A stretch of 33,391 bases of DNA, taken from contig VFJO01000288.1 of assembly GCA_009886045.1 (NCBI GenBank), forward strand, positions 1 to 33,391, read 5' to 3'. This document shows, piece by piece, positions 8,053 through 24,923 of this stretch; positions within the stretch are counted from its first letter, which is position 1, and the number at the start of each line of letters is the position of its first letter. Position numbers and translations under genes: made by a program. The DNA comes from Verrucomicrobiota bacterium (GTDB lineage: Bacteria; Verrucomicrobiota; Verrucomicrobiia; Chthoniobacterales; Terrimicrobiaceae). The notes beneath the pieces were generated by a model. The model saw only the letters and a program-made list of their open reading frames with translations. It did not search any database and was not told where the DNA came from.

Positions 8053-8706
8053 ATGGCGAATCTTTTTCCAAAATGGACAAACTGGCTTCCCCTGAAGCTA
8101 GTCATTTGCGCCGGCGTGCTGGTCACGACGATGGCCGGTGGTCTTACTTATTACTTCACCCCGAAGTACACCCGCGTTGGCTATGAGCCGAACCAACCGG
8201 TTCCTTTCTCCCATGTCATCCACGTCCAGCAACTCGGCATGGATTGCCGATACTGCCACAGCTTCGTCGAGGTGGCCTCGCACTCCAACGTGCCGACAAC
8301 TCAGACCTGTATGGCCTGCCACACTCAAATCAAGGCCAATAGTCCTAAACTCACCGCCGTGCGCGAGAGTTGGAAAACGGGCGAACCGGTCAACTGGGTT
8401 CGCATTCACCAAGTGCCCGACTACACTTATTTCAACCACGCCGTGCACGTGAACCGAGGCGTGAGCTGCTATAGTTGCCATGGAGCGATCAATGAAATGA
8501 AGGTCGTTTACCAGCACGAGCCGCAGAGCATGTCTTGGTGTCTCGATTGCCACCGCGCTCCGGAAAATCACCTCCGTCCACCCTCGGAAATCTACAACAT
8601 GGCTTGGAAGCCGCCAGCGGATACCACCCAGCGCGAGATCGGCCTGAAGTTTAAAGAGGAGTGGGAAGTGAACCCGCCCGTCACTTGCGGAGGTTGCCAC
8701 CGATGA
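8053..8706 (+). CDS. actA: Alternative complex III subunit ActA, pentaheme cytochrome c
   Basis: ActA is the multiheme subunit of ACIII, a quinol-oxidising complex that replaces bc1. The 217-residue protein has an N-terminal membrane anchor (about residues 14-34) and five CXXCH heme sites at C65, C86, C139, C163 and C212 (CRYCH, CMACH, CYSCH, CLDCH, CGGCH), the number known for ActA. It faces the periplasm. There is no good Shine-Dalgarno before ATG 8053. The stop overlaps the actB start by 4 bases (ATGA), and the act genes follow in standard order. Confidence 0.95.
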   Translation: MANLFPKWTNWLPLKLVICAGVLVTTMAGGLTYYFTPKYTRVGYEPNQPVPFSHVIHVQQLGMDCRYCHSFVEVASHSNVPTTQTCMACHTQIKANSPKLTAVRESWKTGEPVNWVRIHQVPDYTYFNHAVHVNRGVSCYSCHGAINEMKVVYQHEPQSMSWCLDCHRAPENHLRPPSEIYNMAWKPPADTTQREIGLKFKEEWEVNPPVTCGGCHR

Positions 8707-11700
8707 AGAAAAATCTGAACCACCCAGCCCCAGAGACTAACCCGCGCATCTGGCGCAGTCTCCGCGAGCGCGAGAACGACCCCGAATTTTTGAAACACCT
8801 GCGGGCGGAGTTTCCGCGCGGAGCAGGTATCTATGAGGATGGAGGCCTTTCCAAGCGCGACTTCATGAAGCTCATGGGGGCTTCCATCGCCCTCGCCGGA
8901 GTAGGGCTTGTAGGTTGCCGTCGCCCAGAGTCCTACCTTGTTCCATTCACCAAAGGTGTTGAATACGCCATTCCAGGCAAGTTTCTTTTCTACGCGACTT
9001 CGATGCCTGCCCGATATGGCGCGGTCCCGCTCATCGTGACGACAAGCGATGGACGTCCCACCAAGCTCGAAGGCAATACCCTCCACCCCTTCAGCAATGG
9101 GGGAACGGACAGTTTCGCGCAGGCTGAAATTCTCAACCTCTACGATCCACACCGCTCAAAGCAGATCACGGAAAAAGGCGCGCCCTCCGACGCTGCCGCA
9201 TTCGATGCCTTCGTTCTCTCTCTCGCCAGTGGTAAGGGGGACGGGCTCGCGATCTTGGCCGAGGCAAACAACTCTCCAACGCGTAGCCGTTTGCGCGGCC
9301 TGCTCGAAGCAAAATTCCCGAAGCTCCTCTGGGCAGAATACGATCCTCTTGCTGCTTCAGCCACCACCGAAGCCAATAATGCTTCTTTTGGCACCAACAC
9401 GCGACTCATTCCGGATTTCAAGCTCGTGGACGTAGTTCTCGCGATCGGCAGCGATTTTCTAAACCCCATAGAGACCGGCATTGGCTTTGCTCAAGGCTTT
9501 GCTGCCCGACGCAATCCAGATCAGGACGGATCTTCGATGAACCGCCTCTACTCTGTCGAAAACCATTACACGGTTACCGGCGGCATGGCCGATCATCGCC
9601 TTCGCTGCAAGGCTTCCGAACTCGGTGAATTCACCCGCCAACTCGCACTTGCTCTTGCTGAAAAAACAAAAGACCCAAGCCTCGCCGCAGTCGCCAAGGC
9701 ATTCCCCGAGTCAAAAACCAGCCTCGCTGCCAATTGGATTCAAGAGTGTGCCGCCGATCTGGCAGCGCACGCAGGCCGCTCTCTCGTTATCTCGGGCCCG
9801 CTCACTCCAGCTCCTCTTCAGGTGCTCGTCAATGCGATCAATAACGCGCTCGGCAATATCGGAACCACTTTGAAATTGGTTATAACCGATACCATTGATG
9901 CCGCTTCGATCGAAGACCTCGCCGCATCCATCAATAAAGGCAGCGTCAAAACTCTCATCCTTCTGGGCGTTAATCCCGTGCAGAACGCTCCGGCCAACTT
10001 GGATTTCCCTGCTCTGTTAGCAAAAGTCCCCGACACGGTTCATCTCGGTCTCTTTGAGGATGAAACCGCTAAAGCCACTCGCTGGCATGTGCCTGCCGCC
10101 CATTTCTTGGAAACCTGGAGCGACGTGCGCACTTTCGATGGGACGTACACATCGGTCCAGCCGATGATCCTCCCCTTGTGGAATGGCGCTTCTGAATTAG
10201 AACTCCTGAACAAGCTCGCCGGAGCCCCCACACCCGAGGGCCCTGCCTTGGTTCGAGCCACTTTCAATAAAATTGCCAAGGATTCCAGCGATGAATCATG
10301 GAACGCGTTTTTGCGTGATGGATTCCTCCCGAATTCAGCCTTCGTTCCCGCTAAAGTTTCCTTCAATGCTGCATCCGCAGGTACCTTGGCCAAACAAGCC
10401 CAACCCGCGAATTCCGATGCCTTGGAACTCGTGTTTCTCCAAAGCTCCAGCGTGGACGATGGACGCTATGCCAATAATTCTTGGCTCGTTGAAACACCCG
10501 ACTTTGTGACCAAAGTCACTTGGGACAACGCCGTCATGGTGAGTCCAGCTACCGCAAAAAAGCTTGGCATCAAGGCAAATAATTTCGATGTCCTCGGCGA
10601 CGTTGCCGAGAAGATGGGCAACGATGTCAACTACGACCTTGTCGCCGATATCGTGGAAATTTCTGATGGGAAAAAAACCATCGAAGCTGCTGCAATCGTC
10701 GCCCCCGGCCACGCCGACGACTCGCTCTCGATCGCTCTCGGCTACGGACGCAAAGGCGTTTCGGCTCTCATGGAAAATGTTGGATTTGATGCTTATCCGC
10801 TTCGTTATTCCGAGTCCATGTTCTTCCTGAGCGCTGTCACGCTCAAAGTCACAAATCGCAACTACCCGATGGCTCAAACCCAAGAGCACCGCAGCATGGA
10901 AGGCCGTGACCTCGTTCGTGAGGGAACTCTCGAGCGCTACGATAAAGACAACGCTTTCGCCCAAAAGATGGGCATGGACAGTCACACTCCGCCGAACATT
11001 TCGCTCTACACCCATCCTGAACTGACCTCGAAGGAACAGTGGGGAATGACGGTGGACCTCAATACCTGCACCGGTTGCAACGCCTGCGCAGTTGCCTGCC
11101 AAGCTGAGAATAACGTGCCTGTCGTCGGAAAAGACCAAGTGCGCAAAAACCGCGATATGGCTTGGATTCGACTCGACCGCTACTTTGCAGGCGATGCCGA
11201 GGACCCCGAAATGCTTTCGCAAGCTATCATGTGCCAGCACTGCGAAAATGCACCTTGCGAAACAGTTTGCCCCGTGAACGCTACCGTCCACAGCGAGGAC
11301 GGTCTCAACCTGATGGCTTATAACCGCTGCATCGGAACTCGCTACTGCGCGAACAACTGCCCGTGGAAAGTGCGCCGGTTCAATTATTTCGATTACAACC
11401 AGCGTCCGATCGATCAACTTTACTGGGGCCCGCTCGCCAAAAAAGGTATGGCCGATAGCCTCAAGATGGCCAAGAATCCGAATGTCACAGTCCGCATGCG
11501 TGGCGTCATGGAAAAATGCACCTTCTGCATTCAACGCATCGAGGAATCCAAAATCTCCCGCCTCGTGGAAGCAGGTCCGACTCCAGCCAGCGATACGCCC
11601 ATCGCCTCGTTCAAAGTCGCTTGCCAACAAGCCTGCCCCAACGACTCGATCGTTTTTGGCGACATCGCCAATCCAAAGAGCGAAGTTTCAAAAATGCGCA

Positions 11701-11918
11701 AAAGCCCGCGCCGCTATGAGATGCTTAAATATCTCAATGTCACGCCACGCGTTCTTTACTTGGCCCGTATCAAAAACCCAAATCCCAAAATGCCTGGGGC
11801 CAATCAGGTCGGAATGGCTAACGGTTCCGGTCACCATGGAGATGCCCACGGTGCAGGTCACGATTCGCACAATGCCCAACCGCCACACGGCGAAACCCAC
11901 GCGCCCGCAGGCCACTAA
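8703..11918 (+). CDS. actB: ACIII subunit ActB, molybdopterin-like and Fe-S fusion
   Basis: ActB is the large periplasmic electron-transfer subunit. The 1071-residue protein fuses a molybdopterin-oxidoreductase-like domain (about 90-740, not expected to bind Mo in this family) to a ferredoxin-like module with cysteine groups near residues 789 (CTGCNACAVAC), 843 (CQHCENAPCETVC) with CIGTRYCANNC after it, and 938 (CTFC) with ACQQACP after it, enough for four clusters. The N-terminal export motif is S-K-R-D-F-M-K, so the first twin arginine is lysine, and a cysteine follows at 72. The last 31 residues contain eight histidines. ATG 8703 overlaps actA. Confidence 0.95.
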   Translation: MKKNLNHPAPETNPRIWRSLRERENDPEFLKHLRAEFPRGAGIYEDGGLSKRDFMKLMGASIALAGVGLVGCRRPESYLVPFTKGVEYAIPGKFLFYATSMPARYGAVPLIVTTSDGRPTKLEGNTLHPFSNGGTDSFAQAEILNLYDPHRSKQITEKGAPSDAAAFDAFVLSLASGKGDGLAILAEANNSPTRSRLRGLLEAKFPKLLWAEYDPLAASATTEANNASFGTNTRLIPDFKLVDVVLAIGSDFLNPIETGIGFAQGFAARRNPDQDGSSMNRLYSVENHYTVTGGMADHRLRCKASELGEFTRQLALALAEKTKDPSLAAVAKAFPESKTSLAANWIQECAADLAAHAGRSLVISGPLTPAPLQVLVNAINNALGNIGTTLKLVITDTIDAASIEDLAASINKGSVKTLILLGVNPVQNAPANLDFPALLAKVPDTVHLGLFEDETAKATRWHVPAAHFLETWSDVRTFDGTYTSVQPMILPLWNGASELELLNKLAGAPTPEGPALVRATFNKIAKDSSDESWNAFLRDGFLPNSAFVPAKVSFNAASAGTLAKQAQPANSDALELVFLQSSSVDDGRYANNSWLVETPDFVTKVTWDNAVMVSPATAKKLGIKANNFDVLGDVAEKMGNDVNYDLVADIVEISDGKKTIEAAAIVAPGHADDSLSIALGYGRKGVSALMENVGFDAYPLRYSESMFFLSAVTLKVTNRNYPMAQTQEHRSMEGRDLVREGTLERYDKDNAFAQKMGMDSHTPPNISLYTHPELTSKEQWGMTVDLNTCTGCNACAVACQAENNVPVVGKDQVRKNRDMAWIRLDRYFAGDAEDPEMLSQAIMCQHCENAPCETVCPVNATVHSEDGLNLMAYNRCIGTRYCANNCPWKVRRFNYFDYNQRPIDQLYWGPLAKKGMADSLKMAKNPNVTVRMRGVMEKCTFCIQRIEESKISRLVEAGPTPASDTPIASFKVACQQACPNDSIVFGDIANPKSEVSKMRKSPRRYEMLKYLNVTPRVLYLARIKNPNPKMPGANQVGMANGSGHHGDAHGAGHDSHNAQPPHGETHAPAGH

Positions 11919-11932
11919 CAGATTCCTGACCA

Positions 11933-13351
11933 ATGTCTAACCCGACAGCTACAGCCGAACACAACGAGCCGCCCACGGCCGAGGACAAACAGCTTGTCCG
12001 TCCACCGCTCGTGCTCAACCAGCGCACGATGGGCTGGATCAGTTCTTACATCAGCTCGATCGTCGAAGGAAAAACACCTACTTGGTGGTATGTCTCCATG
12101 GCATTCACCATTCCGCTTACGCTCCTTTGCTTGGCACTCCTCGCCTATCTTATTTCTACAGGTGTAGGTGTTTGGGGAAATAACCACCCCGTCGGCTGGG
12201 CGTGGGATATCACAAACTTCGTGTTCTGGATCGGTATCGGCCACGCTGGTACCCTCATCTCAGCCATCCTCTTCCTGACCCGTCAAAAGTGGCGCACCTC
12301 GATCAACCGCGCCGCCGAGGCTATGACCCTCTTCGCCGTGGTTTGCGCCGGTATCTATCCTGCTCTTCACGTTGGCCGCGTCTGGATGGCTTGGTGGCTG
12401 GCTCCAGTGCCAAATGCCAATGCGATTTGGCAAAACTTCCGCTCACCGCTCTTATGGGACGTGTTTGCCGTATCCACTTATTTCACTGTTTCCGTCCTCT
12501 TCTGGTACACCGGCCTCATTCCCGACCTTGCAACCTTGCGTGACCGCTGCACGACAAAAATTCGCAAATTCATCTACGGCGTCCTCGCCCTCGGATGGCG
12601 CGGGGGTAACCGCCAGTGGCGCCACTACGAAATGGCTTACCTCATCCTCGCAGGCCTGTCGACCCCTCTCGTTCTCTCCGTGCACTCGGTCGTGTCTTTC
12701 GACTTCGCGACTTCCGTGGTTCCCGGTTGGCACACAACGATTTTTCCGCCTTACTTCGTGGCAGGAGCTATCTTCGGTGGATTTGCCATGGTGCTGACCA
12801 TCATGATTCCCGCCTGCGCGATTTACAAACCGCTCCATGACCTTGTCACCGTGAACCATGTGGACAAGATGTGTAAAATCATCCTGCTCACCGGTTCGAT
12901 CGTGGGCTACGCCTACCTCATGGAGCTTTTCATCGCTTGGTATAGCGCAAATCCTTACGAACGTGCCGCTTTCTGGTATCGTGCCTTCGGTCCCTACTGG
13001 TGGGCTTATTGGTCCATGATGTTCTGCAACGTGGTCTCGCCGCAGTTCTTCTGGTTCAAATTCTTCCGCACGCACCTCGTGTGGGTCTGGATCATTGTTC
13101 AATTCCCGAATATGGGCATGTGGTTCGAACGCTTCGTCATCATCGCCACCACTTTAACTCGCGACTTCACGCCATCCGCTTGGGGAATGTTCCATCCGAC
13201 TTGGGTTGATATCTGCACATTCATCGGAACCTTTGGCCTATTCGGCACTTTATTCCTGCTCTTCATCCGTTTCCTTCCAATGATCTGTATGTTTGAAGTT
13301 AAAGCGGTTCTGCCAGAAGCAGATCCGCATCACGGAGAGGCCCATCACTAA
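11933..13351 (+). CDS. actC: ACIII subunit ActC, NrfD-like integral membrane protein
   Basis: ActC is the NrfD/PsrC-family membrane subunit thought to hold the quinol site and a proton half-channel. The 472-residue protein has about ten transmembrane helices between residues 45 and 450, with signatures such as [28 protein letters not shown] and [17 protein letters not shown]. The C-terminus ends in a histidine cluster (DPHHGEAHH). It starts 14 bases after actB, and its TAA overlaps the next ATG by one base. ActF downstream is its structural paralogue. Confidence 0.94.
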
Positions 13352-13911
13352 TGAACGCAGTCGGCAACACATCCGCTCCAGTTTACGGCATCGCAGCCGA
13401 ATTCCAGTGCGCTCGCGATCTCTATCACGCAGCCCAGAAAATCCGCGACGCCGGATTTCAAAAATGGGACGTCTTTTCCCCATTCCCGATTCACGGCATG
13501 GATGAGGCCATGGGCATGAAACGCTCGATCCTTGGAAAAGTTGTCTTCCTCGGCGGACTCACCGGCTTTCTCACCGCTGTGACCCTAGAATTCGGCACTT
13601 CGTCGTTCCTCTACCCGCTTATCGTCGCCGGAAAACCCACGAATCTTTTCACCGTTCCGGCTTTCTTTCCGATCATGTTTGAGTTGACCATTCTTCTCTC
13701 GGCCTTCACTGCTGTCTTTGGAATGCTCTTGATGAACGGTCTGCCCCGTTTGAACCATCAACTTTTCAATTGGGATCGGTTCAAACTCGTCACAGAGGAC
13801 AAATTCTTTGTCGCCATCGAGGCGAAGGATCCTCAATTCTCGTCCCGCTCGGTGAGCGATTTCTTGGAATCCCTCGGCGGCACACACATTACCACCATCC
13901 ACGGCGATTAA
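13351..13911 (+). CDS. actD: ACIII subunit ActD (DUF3341)
   Basis: ActD is a small membrane subunit of ACIII. The 186-residue protein has the DUF3341 layout: a soluble N-terminal domain beginning PVYGIAAEF with GFQKWDVFSPFPIHGMDEAMG, then two transmembrane helices (about residues 63-86 and 106-130), and a cytoplasmic C-terminal ferredoxin-fold-like tail (EDKFFVAIEA). It overlaps actC by one base (TAATG), a sign of coupled translation, and lies 6 bases before actE. Confidence 0.9.
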   Translation: MNAVGNTSAPVYGIAAEFQCARDLYHAAQKIRDAGFQKWDVFSPFPIHGMDEAMGMKRSILGKVVFLGGLTGFLTAVTLEFGTSSFLYPLIVAGKPTNLFTVPAFFPIMFELTILLSAFTAVFGMLLMNGLPRLNHQLFNWDRFKLVTEDKFFVAIEAKDPQFSSRSVSDFLESLGGTHITTIHGD

Positions 13912-13917
13912 ACGATC

Positions 13918-14613
13918 ATGCTAAAATACTTTTTTTATACATTTGTTTTGGTCGTCGTTCTGATTGTAAGTGTTGCAGGATTCCGAGGCCAAAAATCCAC
14001 GAAACCACCATTTGAGTTTTTCCCGGACATGGACCGCCAGCCTAAGGTAAAAGCTCAAGTTCCGAGCAACTTTTACGCCGATGGACGTGGCAATCGCGAG
14101 CCGATCTCCGGTACCGTTCCGCTCGGATATGCCATGCCCCAGCACAAAAAACTGGCTGGATCAACTGGGGAATCCGAAAGCCCGTACAAACAAATTCATT
14201 TCTCCTCGGGCGTCTCTTACTCGAGTACAGGGAAAATAGGCACCCAATGGGGGACTGGAATGCCACTTGAAGTCACTCCCGAGGTCATTGCCCGCGGCCA
14301 AGAACGCTTCGCCATTTCCTGCAAAGTTTGCCACGGGGCCACAGGAGCCGGAAATGGCATCGCTGGAAAATACGGCCTCGTCGGAATTGCCAACCTTCAC
14401 CAACAACGAATTCGCGATATGGCAGATGGCGAAATTTTCAATACCATTGCCTACGGTAAAAATACTATGATGGGGTACGGCGACCGCATTCAAGTACAAG
14501 ATCGGTGGGCCATCGTCGCCTACATCCGTGCCCTCCAAAAATCCCAAGGTGGCGCAGCGATCAACGATGTTCCAGCCACAGAACGGGCAAAATTAGAATC
14601 GCAGACCAAATGA
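13918..14613 (+). CDS. actE: ACIII subunit ActE, monoheme cytochrome c
   Basis: A 231-residue periplasmic cytochrome c anchored by one N-terminal transmembrane helix (residues 3-22). The single heme site CKVCH is near residue 135 and the likely axial methionine is in NTMMGYGDRI. The pre-heme region includes the family's FEFFPDMDRQPKV motif and GTVPLGYAMP. In ACIII, ActE is one of the c-type heme subunits that can pass electrons toward an oxidase. The stop overlaps actF (ATGA). Confidence 0.92.
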   Translation: MLKYFFYTFVLVVVLIVSVAGFRGQKSTKPPFEFFPDMDRQPKVKAQVPSNFYADGRGNREPISGTVPLGYAMPQHKKLAGSTGESESPYKQIHFSSGVSYSSTGKIGTQWGTGMPLEVTPEVIARGQERFAISCKVCHGATGAGNGIAGKYGLVGIANLHQQRIRDMADGEIFNTIAYGKNTMMGYGDRIQVQDRWAIVAYIRALQKSQGGAAINDVPATERAKLESQTK

Positions 14614-15806
14614 GCGGACACGAACCATCACAACCCAGCAGCCATACTTTTGACTACAAGCACGTTGGTGGTCGATTCCTCGGCCTCGTTGCCCTAGCCG
14701 TCGTGGCATTCGCTGCAGTAGCCATTGGCGCTTTTACTAATACGAAGCAATTCGCTTTTTCTTACCTTTTTGCATTCACATTCTTCCTGACGATCTGCAT
14801 GGGCGGACTCTTCTGGACTTTCGTGCATCACGCAGTTGACGCCGAATGGAGCGTGGTAGTCCGTCGTCAGTTGGAAAACATTGCCAGTCTTCTGGCCGTG
14901 ATGGGGATTTTATTCATTCCATTGATTTTTGTAGCTCCGACGCTCTGGTATTGGATGAAACCCGAAAACGCCAACGATCCCCTGCTGATCGAGAAGTGGC
15001 CCTACCTTACCAAAGAATTCTTCTGGATTCGTGCCGCCTTCTACTTTGTCTTTTTCACCGTGGCCAGCCTTTGGCTCCGTAGGAATTCTATCAAACAAGA
15101 CACCTCTGGTTCGGCAAAATACACTCTTCTGAACCGCAAGATTACCTTCGGAAGCCTCCCGCTCTTCGCCGTGAGCCTCACCTTCGCCGCGATCGATTGG
15201 CTCATGGGCCTAGACTACCACTGGTTCTCGACCATGTGGGGCGTTTACATTTTTGCAGGAACCGCCTTGAGCAGCATGTGCGTGCTGGTTCTCATCATCA
15301 CCGCCCTGCGCAACGCGGGATACTTCAAAAATGTCATCACCATCGAGCATTACCACATCATGGGCAAGCTCATGCTGGCATTCACGATTTTCTGGGCATA
15401 CATCGGCTTCAGCCAATACATGCTCATTTGGTATGCTAACATCCCAGAGGAAACCATCTATTTCCTTCGCCGAAATACCGAGAGCTGGCAAATCCTGAGC
15501 ACCGCACTCGTCGTTGGACACTTCTTCGTTCCATTTCTGCTGCTGCTCTCAAACATGGGTAAGAAAAATCCTGCCTTTCTCTGCGGAATGGCACTCTGGA
15601 TTCTGACGATGCATCTTCTCGATATCTATGTAGTTGTCCTTCCTGCACTTCACAAAGCAGGAGTGCAACCGAATTGGCTCGATTTTGCATGCCTCGCAGC
15701 CATAGGCTGCACACTTGCCGCGCTTTTCCTGAAACGCCTTGGTGATTCCCCGCTCTGGCCGCTTCGCGACCCGCGCCTCAAAAATTCCATCGCTCTCAAA
15801 AACTGA
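14610..15806 (+). CDS. actF: ACIII subunit ActF, integral membrane protein
   Basis: ActF is the second large membrane subunit, related to ActC but usually without the quinol site. The 398-residue protein has about ten transmembrane helices, with conserved DWLMGLDYHWFSTMWGVYIFAG split by helices, and a WAYIGFSQYMLIWYANIPEE segment typical of ActF. ATG 14610 overlaps the actE stop and is followed by the expected soluble N-terminal tail; frames extending further upstream fall inside actE. Its stop overlaps the next gene by one base (TGATG). Confidence 0.92.
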   Translation: MSGHEPSQPSSHTFDYKHVGGRFLGLVALAVVAFAAVAIGAFTNTKQFAFSYLFAFTFFLTICMGGLFWTFVHHAVDAEWSVVVRRQLENIASLLAVMGILFIPLIFVAPTLWYWMKPENANDPLLIEKWPYLTKEFFWIRAAFYFVFFTVASLWLRRNSIKQDTSGSAKYTLLNRKITFGSLPLFAVSLTFAAIDWLMGLDYHWFSTMWGVYIFAGTALSSMCVLVLIITALRNAGYFKNVITIEHYHIMGKLMLAFTIFWAYIGFSQYMLIWYANIPEETIYFLRRNTESWQILSTALVVGHFFVPFLLLLSNMGKKNPAFLCGMALWILTMHLLDIYVVVLPALHKAGVQPNWLDFACLAAIGCTLAALFLKRLGDSPLWPLRDPRLKNSIALKN

Positions 15807-16324
15807 TGCAACCCGCCAACACCCACCACGAAGAACCTGCTGGACAGAAAAAACCTGTCTTCTGGATTTTTGTCGCCGGAATGATCGGCCTCATCCTCTT
15901 CGCCGTCTTCAATTCCATCTTCCTCGGAAAAACGGAGTCCTCTCTTAACCCTGAAGACCCTGCTCGGGATGTTGAACGCGTGAAAAATCTTGCGGACCTC
16001 CAAGCTGAGAATGAACCAAAACTGAATACTTACGCCTGGGTTGATCAAGCAAAGGGTTCCGTGCAAATTCCGATTGCCGAAGCAATGAAACTCGTTATTT
16101 CGGACCTCAATTCTAAAAAGCCTGCTCCAGCCTACCCCATTCTTGACTCTGCAGGGCAACCCCTATCCGCAACCACGTCTGCAGCAGCTTCAGCCATGGA
16201 TTCAGCTGATTCCCTGCCAACCGAACCTGTTGCGTTAAGTCAGACGTCGTCCAATGTGCTTGCCGCCCCCGTCGAATCCGGTCAAGACAAGCCGATTAAA
16301 TCCAAAAAACCAGCCAATCAATGA
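15806..16324 (+). CDS. Small one-pass membrane protein of the ACIII cluster, unknown function
   Basis: A 172-residue protein with one transmembrane helix (residues 18-40) and a soluble tail. Residues 74-97 hold a tidy motif, NTYAWVDQAKGSVQIPI followed by AEAMKLV. To my recollection similar Y-W-D...G-V-x-IPI-x-x-AM segments occur in small proteins beside cytochrome oxidase or SCO genes in several phyla, but I cannot verify this here. The last 70 residues are low-complexity (A, S, P, T). It overlaps both neighbours, so it is probably a structural or assembly part of the respiratory complex. It has no CXXC or heme site and is not a SCO protein. Confidence 0.7.
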   Translation: MQPANTHHEEPAGQKKPVFWIFVAGMIGLILFAVFNSIFLGKTESSLNPEDPARDVERVKNLADLQAENEPKLNTYAWVDQAKGSVQIPIAEAMKLVISDLNSKKPAPAYPILDSAGQPLSATTSAAASAMDSADSLPTEPVALSQTSSNVLAAPVESGQDKPIKSKKPANQ

Positions 16325-17781
16325 GCAACGACCAGTCCAGCCAGACGGACACTCTCAGCAGCGCCGAACGCTCGGCCATCGACTCCTCGGTGGCTAGCCC
16401 GGTAATTCTTTTTTTCGGCACCTCCATTCTTTGGTTACTCCTAGGCTCGATCTTTGAACTCACCAGCTCCATCAAGCTTGTCTGGCCATTCTTTCTGGAT
16501 GGTCTCAGTTTCCTCACCTACGGCCGCACAAGTATTGTTTCCGTCAATGCCCTTGCCTACGGATGGGCGACTCCAGCGGCCATCGGGATTGGACTCTGGC
16601 TCACAACCCGCCTTTGCCGGGTCCCCCTCGCTCACCATAAATTGCTAATAGCTTCTGGAATTATCTGGAACCTCGGCGTTTTTGTCGGTGTCTCCGGTCT
16701 CCTCATTGGTGATAGCACTTCGATTCCTCTCTTAAACTTCCCTGCCTACTCCACTCACATCTTGCTTCTCTCCTTCGCGCTGATTGCCACCTGGGCCATT
16801 GTGACTTTCTTCCAGCGCCAGTCCGGGCCGCTCTTCGTTTCCCAATGGTTCCTTGTTGCGGGATTCTTCTCATTCCCATGGCTTTTCGCTACGGCCAGCC
16901 AGCTTCTCGTCTGGAATCCTATCCAAGCTAGTGCTCAATCTCCCATCGCCGCTTGGTACGCTGCCGGTTTTTTTAACCTCTGGCTCGTGCCAATGGGTCT
17001 AGCTGCCGCTTTTTATCTGATCCCAAAATCAATCGGCCGTTCTGTGAACAGCCACCACCTGAGCCTGCTCGCCTTTTGGTCGATTCTTCTTTTTGGGGCG
17101 TGGTCAGGTACCAGCCGCCTAATCGGCGGGCCGCTTCCAGCATGGATGGTAAGCGTAGGAGCCGCAGCTGGGGTCATGATGATCATTCCAGCCCTAGCTG
17201 TTGCTCTGAATTTGCATTTTACGCTCGAAGGGCACTACGCTCCAGTAGCATGGAGTCCCTCTCTTCGCTTCATCGTTTCGGGAGTCTTATTCCTTCTCAC
17301 CACTTGGCTTCTTTCCGCAATAAATTCAATCCCATCGGTAAACTCTGTCACGAATTTCTCCGACCTCACACGTGGCTTGAATCTTCTCGGATACTACGGG
17401 TTTTTTAGTATGATAGCTTTTGGATCAATTTATTACATCTTGCCACGCCTCACGGGTAAGGAATGGCCCTCCTCCTGCCTCATCTCATGGCACTTCTGGC
17501 TTGCGTTGTCTGGAATTCTTCTGGGAGCGTCGGCTCTCATCCTAGGTGGACTGATTCAAGGTTTCGCACTCCAAGATGTGGGCATCACGTTCCGTAGTTC
17601 GATGGATTTTATTTCTCCGTTCAGGTTTTGTGCCGCATTGGCTTCAATCCTTCTTGTTGCAGCTAACCTTGGCTTCGCTCTTCTCTTTGCCGGGCTTCTC
17701 TGGTCCACACGCCGCTCCGGCGCGACGCCCACCCTGATCGCAGTGCGCGAAGAAAATTCCCAAGAGCCCGTCGCGGTATGA
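16321..17781 (+). CDS. CcoN-like membrane protein lacking all heme and copper ligands
   Basis: A 486-residue, about 12-helix protein that aligns by eye with cbb3 oxidase subunit I (CcoN): LVWPFFLDGL...YGRT, WYAAGFF...FYLIPK, WSG...LPAW, GSIYYILPRLTG and SWHFWLALSG. The functional residues are gone. The low-spin heme b histidine of helix 2 is S74; the CuB histidines are A215, S265 and R266; the helix 10 HxH pair is L353 and L355; the cross-linked tyrosine is G259. It is therefore not a conventional oxidase. It overlaps a CcoO-like gene, so a scaffold role for that cytochrome is plausible. The fold call is strong; the role is inferred. Confidence 0.85.
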   Translation: MSNDQSSQTDTLSSAERSAIDSSVASPVILFFGTSILWLLLGSIFELTSSIKLVWPFFLDGLSFLTYGRTSIVSVNALAYGWATPAAIGIGLWLTTRLCRVPLAHHKLLIASGIIWNLGVFVGVSGLLIGDSTSIPLLNFPAYSTHILLLSFALIATWAIVTFFQRQSGPLFVSQWFLVAGFFSFPWLFATASQLLVWNPIQASAQSPIAAWYAAGFFNLWLVPMGLAAAFYLIPKSIGRSVNSHHLSLLAFWSILLFGAWSGTSRLIGGPLPAWMVSVGAAAGVMMIIPALAVALNLHFTLEGHYAPVAWSPSLRFIVSGVLFLLTTWLLSAINSIPSVNSVTNFSDLTRGLNLLGYYGFFSMIAFGSIYYILPRLTGKEWPSSCLISWHFWLALSGILLGASALILGGLIQGFALQDVGITFRSSMDFISPFRFCAALASILLVAANLGFALLFAGLLWSTRRSGATPTLIAVREENSQEPVAV

Positions 17782-18407
17782 ATAAACTCACTCTCCTTTT
17801 CACAGGCATCGTTCTGACTTTCGGTTCGGCTTGGGTTGGCTTTGTGGCCTACCCGGTTGCAAACCTTGCCAACATGGAACCGCTTCCCGATGAAGAAACT
17901 GGAGGACTCATTCCTCCAACGCTTTCAGGCCTTGCCGTTGCCGGCCAAAAAGTGTATGCAGCGAGTGGATGTGTCGAGTGCCACTCCCAGCAAGTCCGTC
18001 CCGATCCTCTTACGACTGATATCGCCAAACAACTCGGTAAACGTCAAACTGTTCCGCGTGATGAAATTCGCGAACACACTCCCTTCCTCGGCGAGTATCG
18101 GATTGGCCAAGATTTATCGAACTATGGAGCGCGGGAAACCGATGTCGCAGCAGTACACCGTCACCTTTACTCGCCTCAACTCGTATCACCTTGGTCGAAC
18201 ATGCCATCTTACAGCTATCTTTACCAATATCGGAAAATTGTGGGCCAGCCATCCTCTCATGCATTACAGGGACTTACCGGATCATTTGCTCCGAAAGCAG
18301 GTTACGAAGTCGTTCCGACTCAGCAAGCGGAGGCTCTGGTTGGTTACCTGCTCTCCCTGAATCAAAACTACCCGCTGCCGGAATCTCCGGAGCCCACCGC
18401 CAAGTAA
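17778..18407 (+). CDS. ccoO-like: CcoO-like membrane-anchored monoheme cytochrome c
   Basis: In cbb3 oxidases CcoO passes electrons to CcoN. This 209-residue protein has an N-terminal transmembrane helix (residues 5-28), heme site C65-VE-C68-H69 followed by SQQVRP as in CcoO, then RIGQDLSNYGAR and the axial-methionine segment SNMPSY (M142). All expected heme ligands are therefore intact, unlike those of its CcoN-like neighbour, whose stop it overlaps (ATGA). It probably remains bound to that protein and serves as an electron carrier in the ACIII cluster. Confidence 0.88.
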   Translation: MNKLTLLFTGIVLTFGSAWVGFVAYPVANLANMEPLPDEETGGLIPPTLSGLAVAGQKVYAASGCVECHSQQVRPDPLTTDIAKQLGKRQTVPRDEIREHTPFLGEYRIGQDLSNYGARETDVAAVHRHLYSPQLVSPWSNMPSYSYLYQYRKIVGQPSSHALQGLTGSFAPKAGYEVVPTQQAEALVGYLLSLNQNYPLPESPEPTAK

Positions 18408-18411
18408 CACC

Positions 18412-19146
18412 GTGACTTCCCATACGCCATCGAACGAGCCACAAAACGGCAAAAGCCCTGAACCAAACGACCCTGTTCTTCGCGAAGGACCTGAGCCTTC
18501 GGAAAAAGGGGCACCCGTTCCTTTCTGGCTCACCATCCTCGCATCCGTCATCATTTTTTGGGCTGGTATCCAGCTTGCTCTCAACAGCGGAGGCTTCCGC
18601 GCTGACGTGTACAACCCTTCTCTTGTCTCTTGGAGCGGCGGCGGCGGTGGGGGCCCCGTAGCACCCCCAGATCCTAAAGTTATCGGGAAACGCCTCTACA
18701 ATCAAAATTGTATCGTCTGCCATCAATCTTCTGGTATGGGAGTCGCTGGCCAATTTCCACCTCTCTTAGCCAGCGAATGGGTCGTCGGCGGCGATTGGGT
18801 CGGCGATAACCACCTTGTCAAAATCCTGCTCGCCGGCATGCAAGGCCCAGTCCAAGTCAAGGGGAGTACCTACAACAATGCCATGCCCCCATGGTCCCAG
18901 CTCAAGGATGAGCAAATTGCCGCAGTCCTCACCTACATCCGCTCCGAATGGGGAAACGCAGCTGTGCCCATTACAGCTGATTATGTGAAAACCATTCGCG
19001 CTGCCAACGCCGACCGCAAGGAGCCCTGGTCCCAAAAAGAGCTGAAAGCAATTCCCACAGAGATCATTTCCGCTGGAGCGGGAGCCCCGCCGGCGCCTCC
19101 TGCTGCTCCTCCATCTCCTGCTTCTGCCGCCCCGCCTGCTGCCTGA
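18412..19146 (+). CDS. Membrane-anchored monoheme cytochrome c
   Basis: A 244-residue protein with a disordered acidic and proline-rich N-terminus, one transmembrane helix (about residues 38-58), a Gly-rich linker (seven residues near 75-81) and a class I cytochrome c domain with C100-IV-C103-H104 and a likely axial methionine in NNAMPPW (M158). The tail after residue 220 is Ala/Pro-rich. It starts at GTG 18412, 4 bases after the CcoO-like gene. It resembles a one-heme version of CcoP, or the fused cytochrome domain of caa3 oxidases encoded separately. It likely hands electrons to CuA of the next gene product. Confidence 0.82.
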   Translation: MTSHTPSNEPQNGKSPEPNDPVLREGPEPSEKGAPVPFWLTILASVIIFWAGIQLALNSGGFRADVYNPSLVSWSGGGGGGPVAPPDPKVIGKRLYNQNCIVCHQSSGMGVAGQFPPLLASEWVVGGDWVGDNHLVKILLAGMQGPVQVKGSTYNNAMPPWSQLKDEQIAAVLTYIRSEWGNAAVPITADYVKTIRAANADRKEPWSQKELKAIPTEIISAGAGAPPAPPAAPPSPASAAPPAA

Positions 19147-19158
19147 TTTGACCCGACT

Positions 19159-19992
19159 ATGAATTTCCTGCTGAGAATCCTTTCCATCACCTCTCTTCTC
19201 CTTGTGAGCGGTTCTATGCCAGCTCTTGCCGAGCAGCGCACATCCAACCTCTACTGGGCCCCACCAAACATCACGGTCGGTGGAGAAAAAATTGACTCCC
19301 TTCTCAATTTTATTTTCGTCCTCACTCTAGTCGTCTTTATTCTCACGCAGGTCGTCTATGTGATTTACCTCATCAGCTACCGCCGTCGCCCAGGTCACAA
19401 GGCCCACTACAGCCACGGAAACAACACTCTCGAGTTCTGGTGGACGATTATTCCAACCGCCGTATTTCTCCTTTTAGCCGTTTGGTCCAACCGCATCTGG
19501 TTTGAACTTACCGAGTCACCGATTGCGCCGGATGCCATTACGGTTGACATCGTTGGCTATCAATTTGGTTGGGATTTGCGCTATGCTGGGGCCGATGGAC
19601 AACTCGGTGCAGGTGATGTGAAGCGTTTCAGCCTAGAAAATAAATTTGGCGTGGACCCTACTGATGCCGCCGGAAAAGATGACTTCACTTCCACCGAACT
19701 TGTCATCCCGGTCGGCAAGCCCGTTCACGTCCTCCTTCGCTCCCGAGACGTGATCCACTCTTTTTACGTTCCATCGTTCCGACTTTACCAAGACGCTGTT
19801 CCTGGTCGCACGATCAAGTGGATGCAATTCACCACAACCCGCACGGCGGATATCGAGCTCGCTTGCAGTCAGCTCTGCGGAACCGGTCACTACAACATGA
19901 AGGCCAAAATTCGCGTTGTTCCTGTTGAGGAATATGAAAAATGGTACGCCGGCAAAGTTGCCGCTGCGCAAGCAGCCGCCGCGTCTCTGTAG
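19159..19992 (+). CDS. coxB: Cytochrome c oxidase subunit II with intact CuA site
   Basis: Subunit II accepts electrons from cytochrome c at its binuclear CuA centre. The 277-residue protein has a signal peptide (cleavage near ALA, residue 24), two transmembrane helices (about 46-72 and 92-114) and a cupredoxin domain. CuA ligands are H200, C236, C240, H244 and M247 (CSQLCGTGHYNM). The aromatic YQFGWDLRY stretch at 134-142 is the usual electron-entry region. A glutamine replaces the common glutamate between the two cysteines. No subunit I, III or IV follows; the cluster stops here and a pilin gene faces it. Confidence 0.93.
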   Translation: MNFLLRILSITSLLLVSGSMPALAEQRTSNLYWAPPNITVGGEKIDSLLNFIFVLTLVVFILTQVVYVIYLISYRRRPGHKAHYSHGNNTLEFWWTIIPTAVFLLLAVWSNRIWFELTESPIAPDAITVDIVGYQFGWDLRYAGADGQLGAGDVKRFSLENKFGVDPTDAAGKDDFTSTELVIPVGKPVHVLLRSRDVIHSFYVPSFRLYQDAVPGRTIKWMQFTTTRTADIELACSQLCGTGHYNMKAKIRVVPVEEYEKWYAGKVAAAQAAAASL

Positions 19993-20181: not shown

Positions 20182-20712
20182 TTACCAGTTTTTGACCCAC
20201 TGATTGGCGTTTGTGGTTCCGCTTGTTGACCAAAGATCAAAAAAACCTGATCCCGAACGCGTTGAATTTCCTGGATACTGGTAGCCGTAGCGATTCCCAA
20301 ATGGATCCAAAACATTCTGGTTGGTATCTTTCGAAAGGGTAGCGTTTGTCCCCATTCCTTTTGAAAATTCAAAGTAAACCTTGTTGAGTGAATTTAAGGA
20401 ATTTGTACCATATGGAGCCAAAGCCCCTCGCAAAAAACTATTAGTCCCGGTGCTTACATTCGTATTTGACCCCGCCGGATAATCCCCCATATCAGCCTTG
20501 TAGCTTTCGAGCGCCGCAGAAAGAGCTGCAATTTCAGCTTCCGCCCGGCTGCGGGCAGCTTTTTTCTGGACGTAGCCTGCGGTCTGAAGCACGAGCGCGG
20601 CTAGGATCGCAATGATCGTGATTACGACAAGCAATTCAATGAGGGTAAAGCCGTGCAAAATGGCCGGAGTTCCTTTTGAGCGCAAGGGGCGTGGGGTATT
20701 GAGAAAGCTCAT
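20182..20712 (-). CDS. Type II secretion/type IV pilin-like protein (GspG-like)
   Basis: A 176-residue prepilin. The leader ends at G21 and the mature chain would start F-T-L-I-E (Glu at mature position 5), followed by the hydrophobic helix LLVVITIIAILAALVLQ. The C-terminal half has the GspG-type pattern SYKADMGDYPAG, DPFGNRYGYQYPG and FDLWSTSG. Such pseudopilins are assembled by a type II secretion or type IV pilus machine, which is not encoded here. It is a lone gene convergent with coxB and divergent from nrdR. Confidence 0.85.
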   Translation of the reverse strand: MSFLNTPRPLRSKGTPAILHGFTLIELLVVITIIAILAALVLQTAGYVQKKAARSRAEAEIAALSAALESYKADMGDYPAGSNTNVSTGTNSFLRGALAPYGTNSLNSLNKVYFEFSKGMGTNATLSKDTNQNVLDPFGNRYGYQYPGNSTRSGSGFFDLWSTSGTTNANQWVKNW

Positions 20713-22327: not shown

Positions 22328-23470
22328 TCAGGCGGATATGGGGGCGTGGCGCTGATCCAGAAGATAGTCCGAATTCTTTGCGTGTTGAAACCCAGATAGA
22401 GGCTTGGCGAGGGCAGCGTTTTTTGAGAACAGGATCGATTTGAATTGAGTCCCCATGGTCTCGGGGTGGAGGAGCGTGCGCAGGCTGCGTAGGATTTTGA
22501 GCGTGGAGCGAGTGAGGGGGAGGGCTTCGAGGGATTTGAGCAGAGGCGTGGAGGCCCCCACGAGGAAGTGGTGCTGGTCGGTGTAGCCCTCCAGATGTAG
22601 GCCGCAGGCGGTGGCATCCCTCGCAAGCGCGGTAAAATCCACATGGGCCGTGATGTCTTTTTCTCCCGGATTTTCCAGTGGTGCGGCATCGCGTTGATGG
22701 CGTGCGTAGCAGGCAAGAGTCCCTCCCGAGCGGTGGGGGGCGAGGAGCTCTGCGTGTGTCATGCCATAGTCGATGGCTAGAAGAAATCCGCGCTGCAGGC
22801 GGTTACTCACGGCTTGAAGCAGCTCGCGCTGGTGGCGTCGGATTTCCACCTGGAAGCCGTCTGGTCGGGGCGGCAGAGGGACGTCAGCCAATGTTTGGCA
22901 TGAGCGATTGAAATGAAATCCCTCATCATCGGCATGCACTAAGAGTTCGTGCCAGAGCCCGCTGCGAGCTTCCAAAATATCGAATGGCAGGGCGTCGAAA
23001 AGCTCGTTGGAAAAATGTATTCCCTGAAAGCCCTCGAGCTTCTCAGGCCCTTCGATCCAGCGCACATCGTGGTCGCTGAGTGTGGCAGACTGTTTTTCAC
23101 GAAGATGAGCCAGTGGCTCGATGAGGGTCAGTCGGGCGCAGGCAAGCGGGGTGTCAGCAAGAGCGTTTAGGATATCGCAGGCAAGCCTGCCATCATTTCC
23201 CCCTTGCTCGATGAGTTGAAAATCTGGGGGCTGGCCCAGCCTATCCCACATCTCCAAAAACTGACTTGCCAGCACAGCTCCGAAGACGGGGCCAACGCTC
23301 ACACTGGTGAAAAAATCCCCCTCTTTTCCCACAGAAGCTCGGTTCGAAGCGTAGTAACCGTCGAGCTGATCGTAGAGCGCCAACTCCATAAAGCGGGAGA
23401 AGTGCATCGGCCCCTTGGCTCGGATTTCGGATTGGATCCGCCCGCTAAGGCTGGGTGACCTCGCGGACAT
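22328..23470 (-). CDS. MidA/NDUFAF7-type SAM-dependent methyltransferase
   Basis: A 380-residue methyltransferase of the MidA family (COG1565), whose mitochondrial member NDUFAF7 methylates a complex I subunit during assembly. Visible parts are the N-terminal MHFSRFMELALYDQLDGYY, the SAM site LIEQGGNDGRLACDI (a divergent glycine loop), FSNELFDALPFDI and FLLAIDYG. It overlaps the preceding membrane-protein gene by 26 bases and is last in a minus-strand operon with the Fe-S carrier. The role in this organism is unproven, but a link to respiratory complex assembly is reasonable. Confidence 0.85.
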   Translation of the reverse strand: MSARSPSLSGRIQSEIRAKGPMHFSRFMELALYDQLDGYYASNRASVGKEGDFFTSVSVGPVFGAVLASQFLEMWDRLGQPPDFQLIEQGGNDGRLACDILNALADTPLACARLTLIEPLAHLREKQSATLSDHDVRWIEGPEKLEGFQGIHFSNELFDALPFDILEARSGLWHELLVHADDEGFHFNRSCQTLADVPLPPRPDGFQVEIRRHQRELLQAVSNRLQRGFLLAIDYGMTHAELLAPHRSGGTLACYARHQRDAAPLENPGEKDITAHVDFTALARDATACGLHLEGYTDQHHFLVGASTPLLKSLEALPLTRSTLKILRSLRTLLHPETMGTQFKSILFSKNAALAKPLSGFQHAKNSDYLLDQRHAPISA

Positions 23471-24923
23471 ACACGTTGATCTGCCCGCCTGGATTCTCCT
23501 TCACATCCATGACCTGAAAGGGGCGTCGCGCATCGCGCGTCACGGCAGATCCCTCCGCCGGGGCGGTCATGCCGTTCGGGTATTGCACAATGATACGAAC
23601 ATTGTCGGCCCTCGATCCAAAGCGCTGGGGCAAGCGCATGACGGCGCGGTCGCCTCCTGCAGCAGTGACATTGAAGCTGCCTTGCAAATAAATCCGCTCA
23701 CCACCGGTTCCCTTTTTTGCAATATCGGAGAGTTCGCCGGTCGCGATGAGACGTCCTCTTGGCATGCGGCTGGGTTCGTAGGTTTGCCAATTTTTAGAGC
23801 CTGCCGCAGCGATGGCTTTGCGAGTCTCAGGAGTAGGCGATGAAATCGGTGAAACGCTTGGAGACGGACTTGGAGAGGAAATTGGAGAGGGTTCTGCAGA
23901 TGGAGAAGGCAACGGCGTGGGAGCCGGGGTGGGGGAGGGCACGATATCGCTTGGCGTGGGGGCAGCAGATGCCAGAAGTACTGGACTTGGAGCAGGAGTG
24001 GCCTCTGGAGTGTAAGCGGGAAGAGGCCTCTCGACTCGCATGAGCCGAGCTTGGCCAATAGCGGGATCTTCGACCTTGGGCTCTTGTTTTTTTGAGGCCA
24101 AGCGGGCCTTCTTACGGAAGTGCTCGTACTTTGCATCGGCTTCTCCCTGTCGGTCTTCATTGGTAACAGGAAGTCCGGCTTTCACGTTGAGCAATGTGGG
24201 CGGATCGAGCGTGAATGTGCCGTCGGCAGACGCGGATTCGTAACTCGGATACATGATCGATACGGTTGTCAGCTTGAGTCGCCCATCCTTGAGCTTCTCG
24301 ATGTGGATGATGGCTGCCAGTTCATTCTCGCGCTTCAGATCAATATCGAGACCGGTCAGCAGTGTGCGGTGGAGCGTAGGTATAACCCGCTTTCCCGATG
24401 AAAAAATCTGCTCGATGAGAAGGCGGGGGTCGTCCTTCGACACAGCCACTGCAGCCACGCCCGAAGAGAAATAATCATTTCCCGTGAGTTCAAATGAGTC
24501 GAGAATATTGAACGTGCCGAGCACATAGGGAACAAGCCCGTCGGCTGGCTTGTAGTTTCGGATATAATTTCGAATGAGTGTCTCATTCGTGCGCTCGAGT
24601 TGGCGGGGTTTCATTTTCCCGTAGCGATCGAGAATTTGTTGCGCGCGAAGAAACTCGCCGCGCGGCGCTTCGGTGAGCTCAAAGCGCTTCGGAGGCTCGA
24701 TTTTTTTCAGCTTCGAGAGGACCTCATGGCTAAATGGTTTTTCTGGATGTCCGAAAATGTAGAAGCTGCAGATCCAGCAAGTAATTGCTATTCCGATGAA
24801 TATAAGAATGAGAATCGTCCATCCAAAGAGACCGGTTTCCTCGTTTTGGGAAGGTTTGGAGGGATCGGAATCGGGGTCCTTAAACCAAGCGCGGCTGTTT
24901 TTTGTCTCCGGATTATGCGGCAT
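23445..24923 (-). CDS. One-pass membrane protein with Pro/Ser-rich linker, unknown function
   Basis: A 492-residue protein I do not recognise. A short cytoplasmic N-terminus precedes one transmembrane helix (about residues 34-56, GWTILILIFIGIAITCWICS). A folded domain covers about 60-265, then a charged stretch. A low-complexity linker of about 65 residues (roughly 305-370) is made mainly of Pro, Ser, Ala and Thr repeats, and a small C-terminal domain (about 375-492) includes GRLIATGELSDIAKKGTGGERIYLQG and FQVMDVKENPGGQINVYV. It lies 6 bases from the Fe-S carrier gene and overlaps midA, so it belongs to that operon. It may be an envelope protein reaching through a wall layer. Confidence 0.65.
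   Translation of the reverse strand: MPHNPETKNSRAWFKDPDSDPSKPSQNEETGLFGWTILILIFIGIAITCWICSFYIFGHPEKPFSHEVLSKLKKIEPPKRFELTEAPRGEFLRAQQILDRYGKMKPRQLERTNETLIRNYIRNYKPADGLVPYVLGTFNILDSFELTGNDYFSSGVAAVAVSKDDPRLLIEQIFSSGKRVIPTLHRTLLTGLDIDLKRENELAAIIHIEKLKDGRLKLTTVSIMYPSYESASADGTFTLDPPTLLNVKAGLPVTNEDRQGEADAKYEHFRKKARLASKKQEPKVEDPAIGQARLMRVERPLPAYTPEATPAPSPVLLASAAPTPSDIVPSPTPAPTPLPSPSAEPSPISSPSPSPSVSPISSPTPETRKAIAAAGSKNWQTYEPSRMPRGRLIATGELSDIAKKGTGGERIYLQGSFNVTAAGGDRAVMRLPQRFGSRADNVRIIVQYPNGMTAPAEGSAVTRDARRPFQVMDVKENPGGQINVYVREVTQP

Follow-up and report, generated by a model that had tools for sequence, protein, structure and literature searches.

Gene content of the locus

The window, a 33,391-nucleotide stretch of contig VFJO01000288.1 from a Verrucomicrobiota bacterium, carries on its forward strand genes in the order ActA-ActB-ActC-ActD-ActE-ActF-X-N-O-cytochrome c-CoxB, with a CcoN-like gene at position N and a CcoO-like gene at position O. 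The features are as follows.

8053-8706, forward strand: protein with five CXXCH motifs, Pfam Cytochrome_C7; place kept in relatives
8703-11918, forward strand: ActB, molybdopterin-like/iron-sulfur subunit; Pfam Fer4, TIGR04519 TAT-variant domain, QrcB/QrcC matches; likely start at 8703, within an ORF opening at 8661
11933-13351, forward strand: ActC, NrfD-like membrane subunit; Pfam NrfD, E 2e-16
13351-13911, forward strand: ActD; Pfam ActD, E 1e-60
13918-14613, forward strand: ActE, monoheme cytochrome c; one CXXCH, Pfam cytochrome c domains
14607-15806, forward strand: ActF, membrane subunit, named from its place between ActE and X, which is conserved in relatives; no Pfam match; start at 14607, within an ORF opening at 14505
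15806-16324, forward strand: X, 172-aa protein between ActF and the CcoN-like gene, in the same place in most relatives; no Pfam or NCBIfam match
16321-17781, forward strand: ligandless CcoN-like subunit, identified by COX1, TIGR00780, phmmer and AlphaFold2/Foldseek
17778-18407, forward strand: CcoO-like monoheme cytochrome c; Pfam FixO, E 1.3e-15; CVECH and MPSY motif kept
18412-19146, forward strand: monoheme cytochrome c (CIVCH); Pfam Cytochrom_C; predicted N-terminal membrane segment; place kept in relatives
19159-19992, forward strand: CoxB, CuA subunit of an A-type oxidase, without CXXCH or fused cytochrome c domain

The locus belongs to an ACIII-associated CcoN-CcoO operon family of Verrucomicrobiae with the order ActA-F, X, N, O, cytochrome c, the conserved operon being ActABCDEF-X-N-O-cytc(-CoxB-CoxA). 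A search for homologues, suggested by the original prediction made from this DNA alone, found them adjoining act genes in conserved order. Within the window's taxonomic order, 68 of the 77 genomes searched gave a match to N, the weakest matches being canonical fused CcoNO proteins, and gene order was the same in nearly all loci with readable flanks. Protein X is possibly an ActG-like extra subunit. CoxB scored 147.2 bits in TIGR02866, just below the cut-off of 147.7. The window operon ends at CoxB without a CoxA, while several sister families keep CoxB and CoxA together. The window's genome has two A-type subunit I genes; one, of CoxA2 type, stands alone on another contig and is the likely partner of the window CoxB. 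No other C-type subunit I was found in this genome. Right after the respiratory operon lies a type II secretion/pilin-like protein (T2SSG, N_methyl; 20182-20712, reverse strand), and further downstream a 492-aa proline-rich membrane protein without a Pfam match (23445-24923, reverse strand).

A CcoN-like protein without heme or copper ligands

The CcoN-like gene (16321-17781, forward strand) starts with ATG, encodes 486 aa without an internal stop and overlaps both flanking ORFs by 4 bases, the upstream one ending at 16324 and the downstream one starting at 17778. Its product matches Pfam COX1 over residues 28-442 (135 bits, E 3.3e-39) and P. stutzeri CcoN, 3mk7_A, by phmmer (E 1e-27), placing it in the COX1/CcoN family by full-length homology; with the TIGR00780 ccoN equivalog model it reached 119 bits (E 2e-34), far below the cut-off of 583. 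The TYGR, FYLIPK, YYILPRL and HFW marks are all present.

The phmmer alignment pairs the six active-site histidines of 3mk7_A with S74 (H60), A215 (H207), S265 (H257), R266 (H258), L353 (H345) and L355 (H347), and the cross-linked tyrosine Y251 with G259. In cbb3 oxidases, we take the low-spin heme b to be bound by H60 and H347, the high-spin heme by H345, and CuB by H207, H257 and H258. The window protein thus has S, A, S, R, L and L in place of the histidines for the low-spin heme, the high-spin heme and CuB. Among proton-channel positions, S240 is kept as S248, Y317 is replaced by L325 and H337 by N345, so that the channel is not conserved as a set. The same ligand positions are lost in a homologue from another genome that is 95% identical, and in further relatives; this concordance and the synteny of the locus throughout the order rule out chance or a sequencing slip. 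Misalignment or sequencing error was likewise rejected on the agreement of phmmer, MAFFT and independent genomes. The original prediction had described an intact, stop-free gene overlapping on both sides, aligned with CcoN along its length and bearing its structural marks, and had assigned exactly these residues to the ligand and tyrosine positions; each point was borne out, and the alignment placed no histidine at any ligand position. Since the site is missing, the window protein is predicted to have no oxygen reductase activity.

Structure prediction indicates that the CcoN fold has been retained. An AlphaFold2 model of the window protein, built with 62 natural sequences, gave a pLDDT of 89.5 and a pTM of 0.90, poor prediction being confined to the first 9 and the last 18 residues. 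The best Foldseek matches in the PDB were cbb3 CcoN chains (3mk7_A: TM 0.86/0.90, rmsd 2.2 Å, 22% identity), a result that rules out an unrelated multi-helix protein. The window protein therefore shares length, fold, marks and a CcoO-like partner gene with CcoN/FixN (3mk7_A), its best structural and sequence match, but lacks the ligands for heme b, heme b3 and CuB, the cross-linked tyrosine and most channel residues. In addition, a monoheme cytochrome replaces the diheme CcoP of cbb3 oxidases.

Active-site residues across the operon family

We assembled 192 non-redundant operon-type N homologues of Verrucomicrobiae from 80 named contigs, all of them Verrucomicrobia-like records apart from one listed under Omnitrophota, and from a phylum-wide search in which 130 of 387 genomes matched, the weaker matches being canonical cbb3 proteins. 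Retention of the seven active-site residues was bimodal: all seven are present in 82 proteins and none to two in 105, with five proteins in between (HRYHHHH, HHCSHHH, HHSARHH and two that keep three residues). The family therefore includes normal-looking C-type oxidases, and the possibility that its members are always ligandless is ruled out by these 82. Intermediates with one to three changes are rare (L119, HHCSHHH; L174, HHSARHH; L087, HRYHHHH); the genome of L119 is fragmented, and no A-type CoxA was found in it.

Ligandless patterns are specific to lineages, with SGGSRLL in the window clade, HSAQKFI in two families, and QQGRHQQ (L249) and AHSSRRW in an Opitutaceae-like family. In a Chthoniobacter-like clade (HNAQRYH or HNSQRYH) the ligands of the high-spin heme and of CuB are lost, and exactly two histidines remain, the equivalents of the low-spin heme b ligands H60 and H347. 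These patterns occur at loci L038, L039, L040, L041, L102, L103, L152, L167, L178 and L180-L183 (except L182).

To compare constraint, 139 columns conserved in at least 95% of liganded members were scored in ligandless ones. The seven ligand columns are retained in 0-33% of the latter and the columns equivalent to R57, S240, Y317 and H337 in 21-37% (Y317, 37%; H337, 24%), while many Gly, Trp and Pro columns are retained in 80-100%. The active site has thus been freed from constraint, and the body of the protein has not.

Partner proteins and the A-type oxidase

The heme c site of the CcoO-like subunit persists where the N site is lost: its CXXCH, which is CVECH in the window, is kept in all 109 readable ligandless loci. 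A simple pattern search recovered an MPxY-type motif, which is proposed to supply the CcoO Met ligand, from 74 of 108 O-like proteins of ligandless loci and from 70 of 85 of full-ligand ones (outgroups counted); the O heme site may therefore vary. Five CXXCH motifs occur in ActA in 70 of 71 ligandless operons, and none in CoxB in 46 of 46. Neither known bridging heme domain, be it the sixth ActA heme of F. johnsoniae or the caa3 cytochrome domain of R. marinus (PMC8552683, PMC5928083), is therefore present. The CcoO-like subunit and the extra cytochrome c could fill the place of this missing bridging heme.

An A-type CoxA was present in all 79 ligandless genomes tested and in 33 of 39 liganded ones (Fisher p 0.001, with genomes treated as unrelated). 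Some liganded operons also carry CoxB-CoxA, and the presence of an aa3 oxidase alone therefore does not explain the loss. CoxA and CoxB are not adjacent to many Opitutaceae-like ligandless operons, where the aa3 partner would need to be encoded elsewhere.

Verrucomicrobial methanotrophs

A cbb3 oxidase adjoining ACIII has been described in verrucomicrobial methanotrophs, and one paper ties it to high oxygen affinity (PMC8498564, PMC6688271). For both these methanotrophs and Opitutaceae, a C-type oxidase encoded with ACIII is reported by Refojo et al. 2010 (cited in PMC8498564) and in PMC6688271; the combination of ACIII with a C-type oxidase is already known. Five genomes of one family in our set (f16) have an N-like gene together with pmoA-type AMO genes, the marker on which we base their assignment as methanotrophs. 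All four N proteins read from this family are ligandless (SESSHFV, ADAAHQT; L264, L268, L269, L270), and the five genomes yielded no other C-type subunit I. Operon family and gene order are the same as published; unlike the functional oxygen reductase of those reports, the methanotroph N proteins and many Opitutaceae-like ones are ligandless here. Judged by its residues, the ACIII-adjacent 'cbb3' gene of methanotrophs cannot encode an oxygen reductase, and the ligandless state extends to many lineages, among them methanotrophs in which the gene has been published as a cbb3 oxidase.

A proposed membrane anchor for a heme c relay

At the level of sequence, the analysis documents ligand loss, a retained predicted fold, selection, synteny, an O heme c site and co-occurrence with an A-type oxidase. 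We consider it reasonably likely that the dead CcoN serves as a membrane anchor for a heme c relay from ACIII to an aa3 oxidase. The ancestral Verrucomicrobiae ACIII operon would have encoded a CcoN-CcoO pair of C type (cbb3-like) whose active site was complete. Wherever a lineage possesses an A-type oxidase as well, the CcoN active site, made up of the high-spin heme, CuB, usually the low-spin heme b, and proton-channel residues, would have been lost, and this repeatedly. The 12-helix CcoN body would have been retained for keeping the CcoO-like monoheme cytochrome c, and possibly the adjacent membrane cytochrome c too, in place beside ACIII. From ActA/ActE, electrons would then reach the CuA centre of the aa3 oxidase by way of the CcoO heme c. 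Ligandless N probably contains no cofactor; that it belongs to an ACIII supercomplex, and that electrons are relayed in this way, is what we infer, with operon linkage as the basis for the association.

In Flavobacterium johnsoniae an additional heme domain of ActA has been suggested to do this electron-transfer job, and in Rhodothermus marinus the cytochrome domain of caa3 (PMC8552683, PMC5928083). The ACIII-caa3/aa3 supercomplexes of these two organisms have ActA-F, an A-type oxidase and an extra heme c between them in common with the system proposed here. They differ in having no CcoN-CcoO pair, and their bridging heme resides in oxidase subunit II or ActA. On balance, we lean slightly towards the view that the catalytic N subunit of a heme-copper oxidase was converted many separate times within a single bacterial class, to become a docking subunit free of heme and copper in a mixed ACIII-CcoNO-aa3 respiratory assembly; intermediates would survive (full enzyme, one-ligand losses, b-heme-only and ligandless), and the methanotroph 'cbb3 oxidase' would not be an oxidase.

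Constraint, probable repeated loss and alternative explanations

A decaying pseudogene that by chance is still open would have lost all catalytic residues, as here, and would fit the longer branches of ligandless proteins. We regard this as very improbable, given that dN/dS is 0.08-0.25 in 15 ligandless pairs, similar to the 0.03-0.21 of 10 liganded pairs, that frames are open and position is conserved across families, and that 105 few-ligand proteins have intact reading frames. For the window gene itself, dN/dS is 0.12 against the 95%-identical relative and 0.083 against an 80%-identical one. On dN/dS and conserved frames we therefore reject decay. Less improbable, though still unlikely, is a single ancient ligandless CcoN lineage that spread through many operons by replacement of N alone. 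The N tree needs just 3-4 state changes, also after removal of conserved columns, as this account would have it, whereas the minimum is 17 on the ActC tree (16 without intermediates), 15 for ActD, 14 each for ActE and ActF, and 12 for the O-like subunit, numbers that imply repeated loss. ActC rejects a single ligandless clade (p-AU 4e-51), though its well-supported branches on their own force only four changes in a 45-row set, and if loss is assumed irreversible its tree implies about 22-24 losses, few-residue-change cases included. The N data, for their part, are compatible with a clade uniting the window genus and its liganded members (p-AU 0.38); the window protein is about 47-51% identical to liganded members of its own family and 34-42% to ligandless ones of other families; and ligandless states differ among lineages. 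The low N-tree count could stem from long-branch attraction, to which we mainly ascribe it, and from a shared release of constraint. Judged from the neighbouring genes, a single origin is disfavoured, and all heme and copper ligands have apparently been lost many times over in soil and lake Verrucomicrobia.

It is rather improbable that N still binds a cofactor through other residues, be it a quinone or a heme held by a new pair of ligands, or that the low-spin heme b alone is kept in one branch. The two histidines kept in the Chthoniobacter-like clade make the latter plausible there, and its N is possibly a b-heme-only oxidase subunit by its residues. In the window clade, by contrast, conserved His, Met and Lys residues are few (H299, H391, M286, M364, K236), and no Cys is conserved. 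As the former are conserved in liganded relatives too, none looks like a replacement ligand, and no such ligand was found in this clade. A role as a proton path or coupling subunit, beyond that of an anchor, is more doubtful still. ActC and ActF, which are cofactor-free membrane subunits, are thought to conduct protons (PMC5928083). Most cbb3 channel columns are lost in N, however, and in the window, where Y251 is G, Y317 is L and H337 is N, only S240 is kept.

Relation to known systems and implications

An anchoring CcoN has a counterpart of a kind in bd oxidases, in which CydB, beside CydA, has an oxidase-type fold without cofactors of its own and is a structural subunit. The two folds are unrelated, and the CydB loss is old and fixed, whereas the CcoN loss is apparently recurrent, with surviving intermediates. 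No description of a ligandless heme-copper subunit I was found in the open-access literature searched, which is weak evidence of absence. The original prediction had interpreted the gene as a heme-copper oxidase fold kept as a scaffold and selected for, not decayed. Total ligand loss, a kept fold, purifying selection and act neighbours uphold it in part, with a scaffold role as a likely reading; the loss is neither universal among homologues nor peculiar to this gene.

A site of six histidines is taken as the hallmark of the heme-copper superfamily, and here about a hundred genomes retain the fold, intact in sequence, after loss of that site. Such genes are annotated as cbb3 oxidase in published work, and high oxygen affinity is deduced from them; inferences on oxygen affinity in Verrucomicrobia, methanotrophs included, therefore need residue-by-residue checking. 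With a series from full enzyme to ligandless protein in one operon, the origin of a respiratory pseudoenzyme and a structural role of CcoN in supercomplexes become directly testable.
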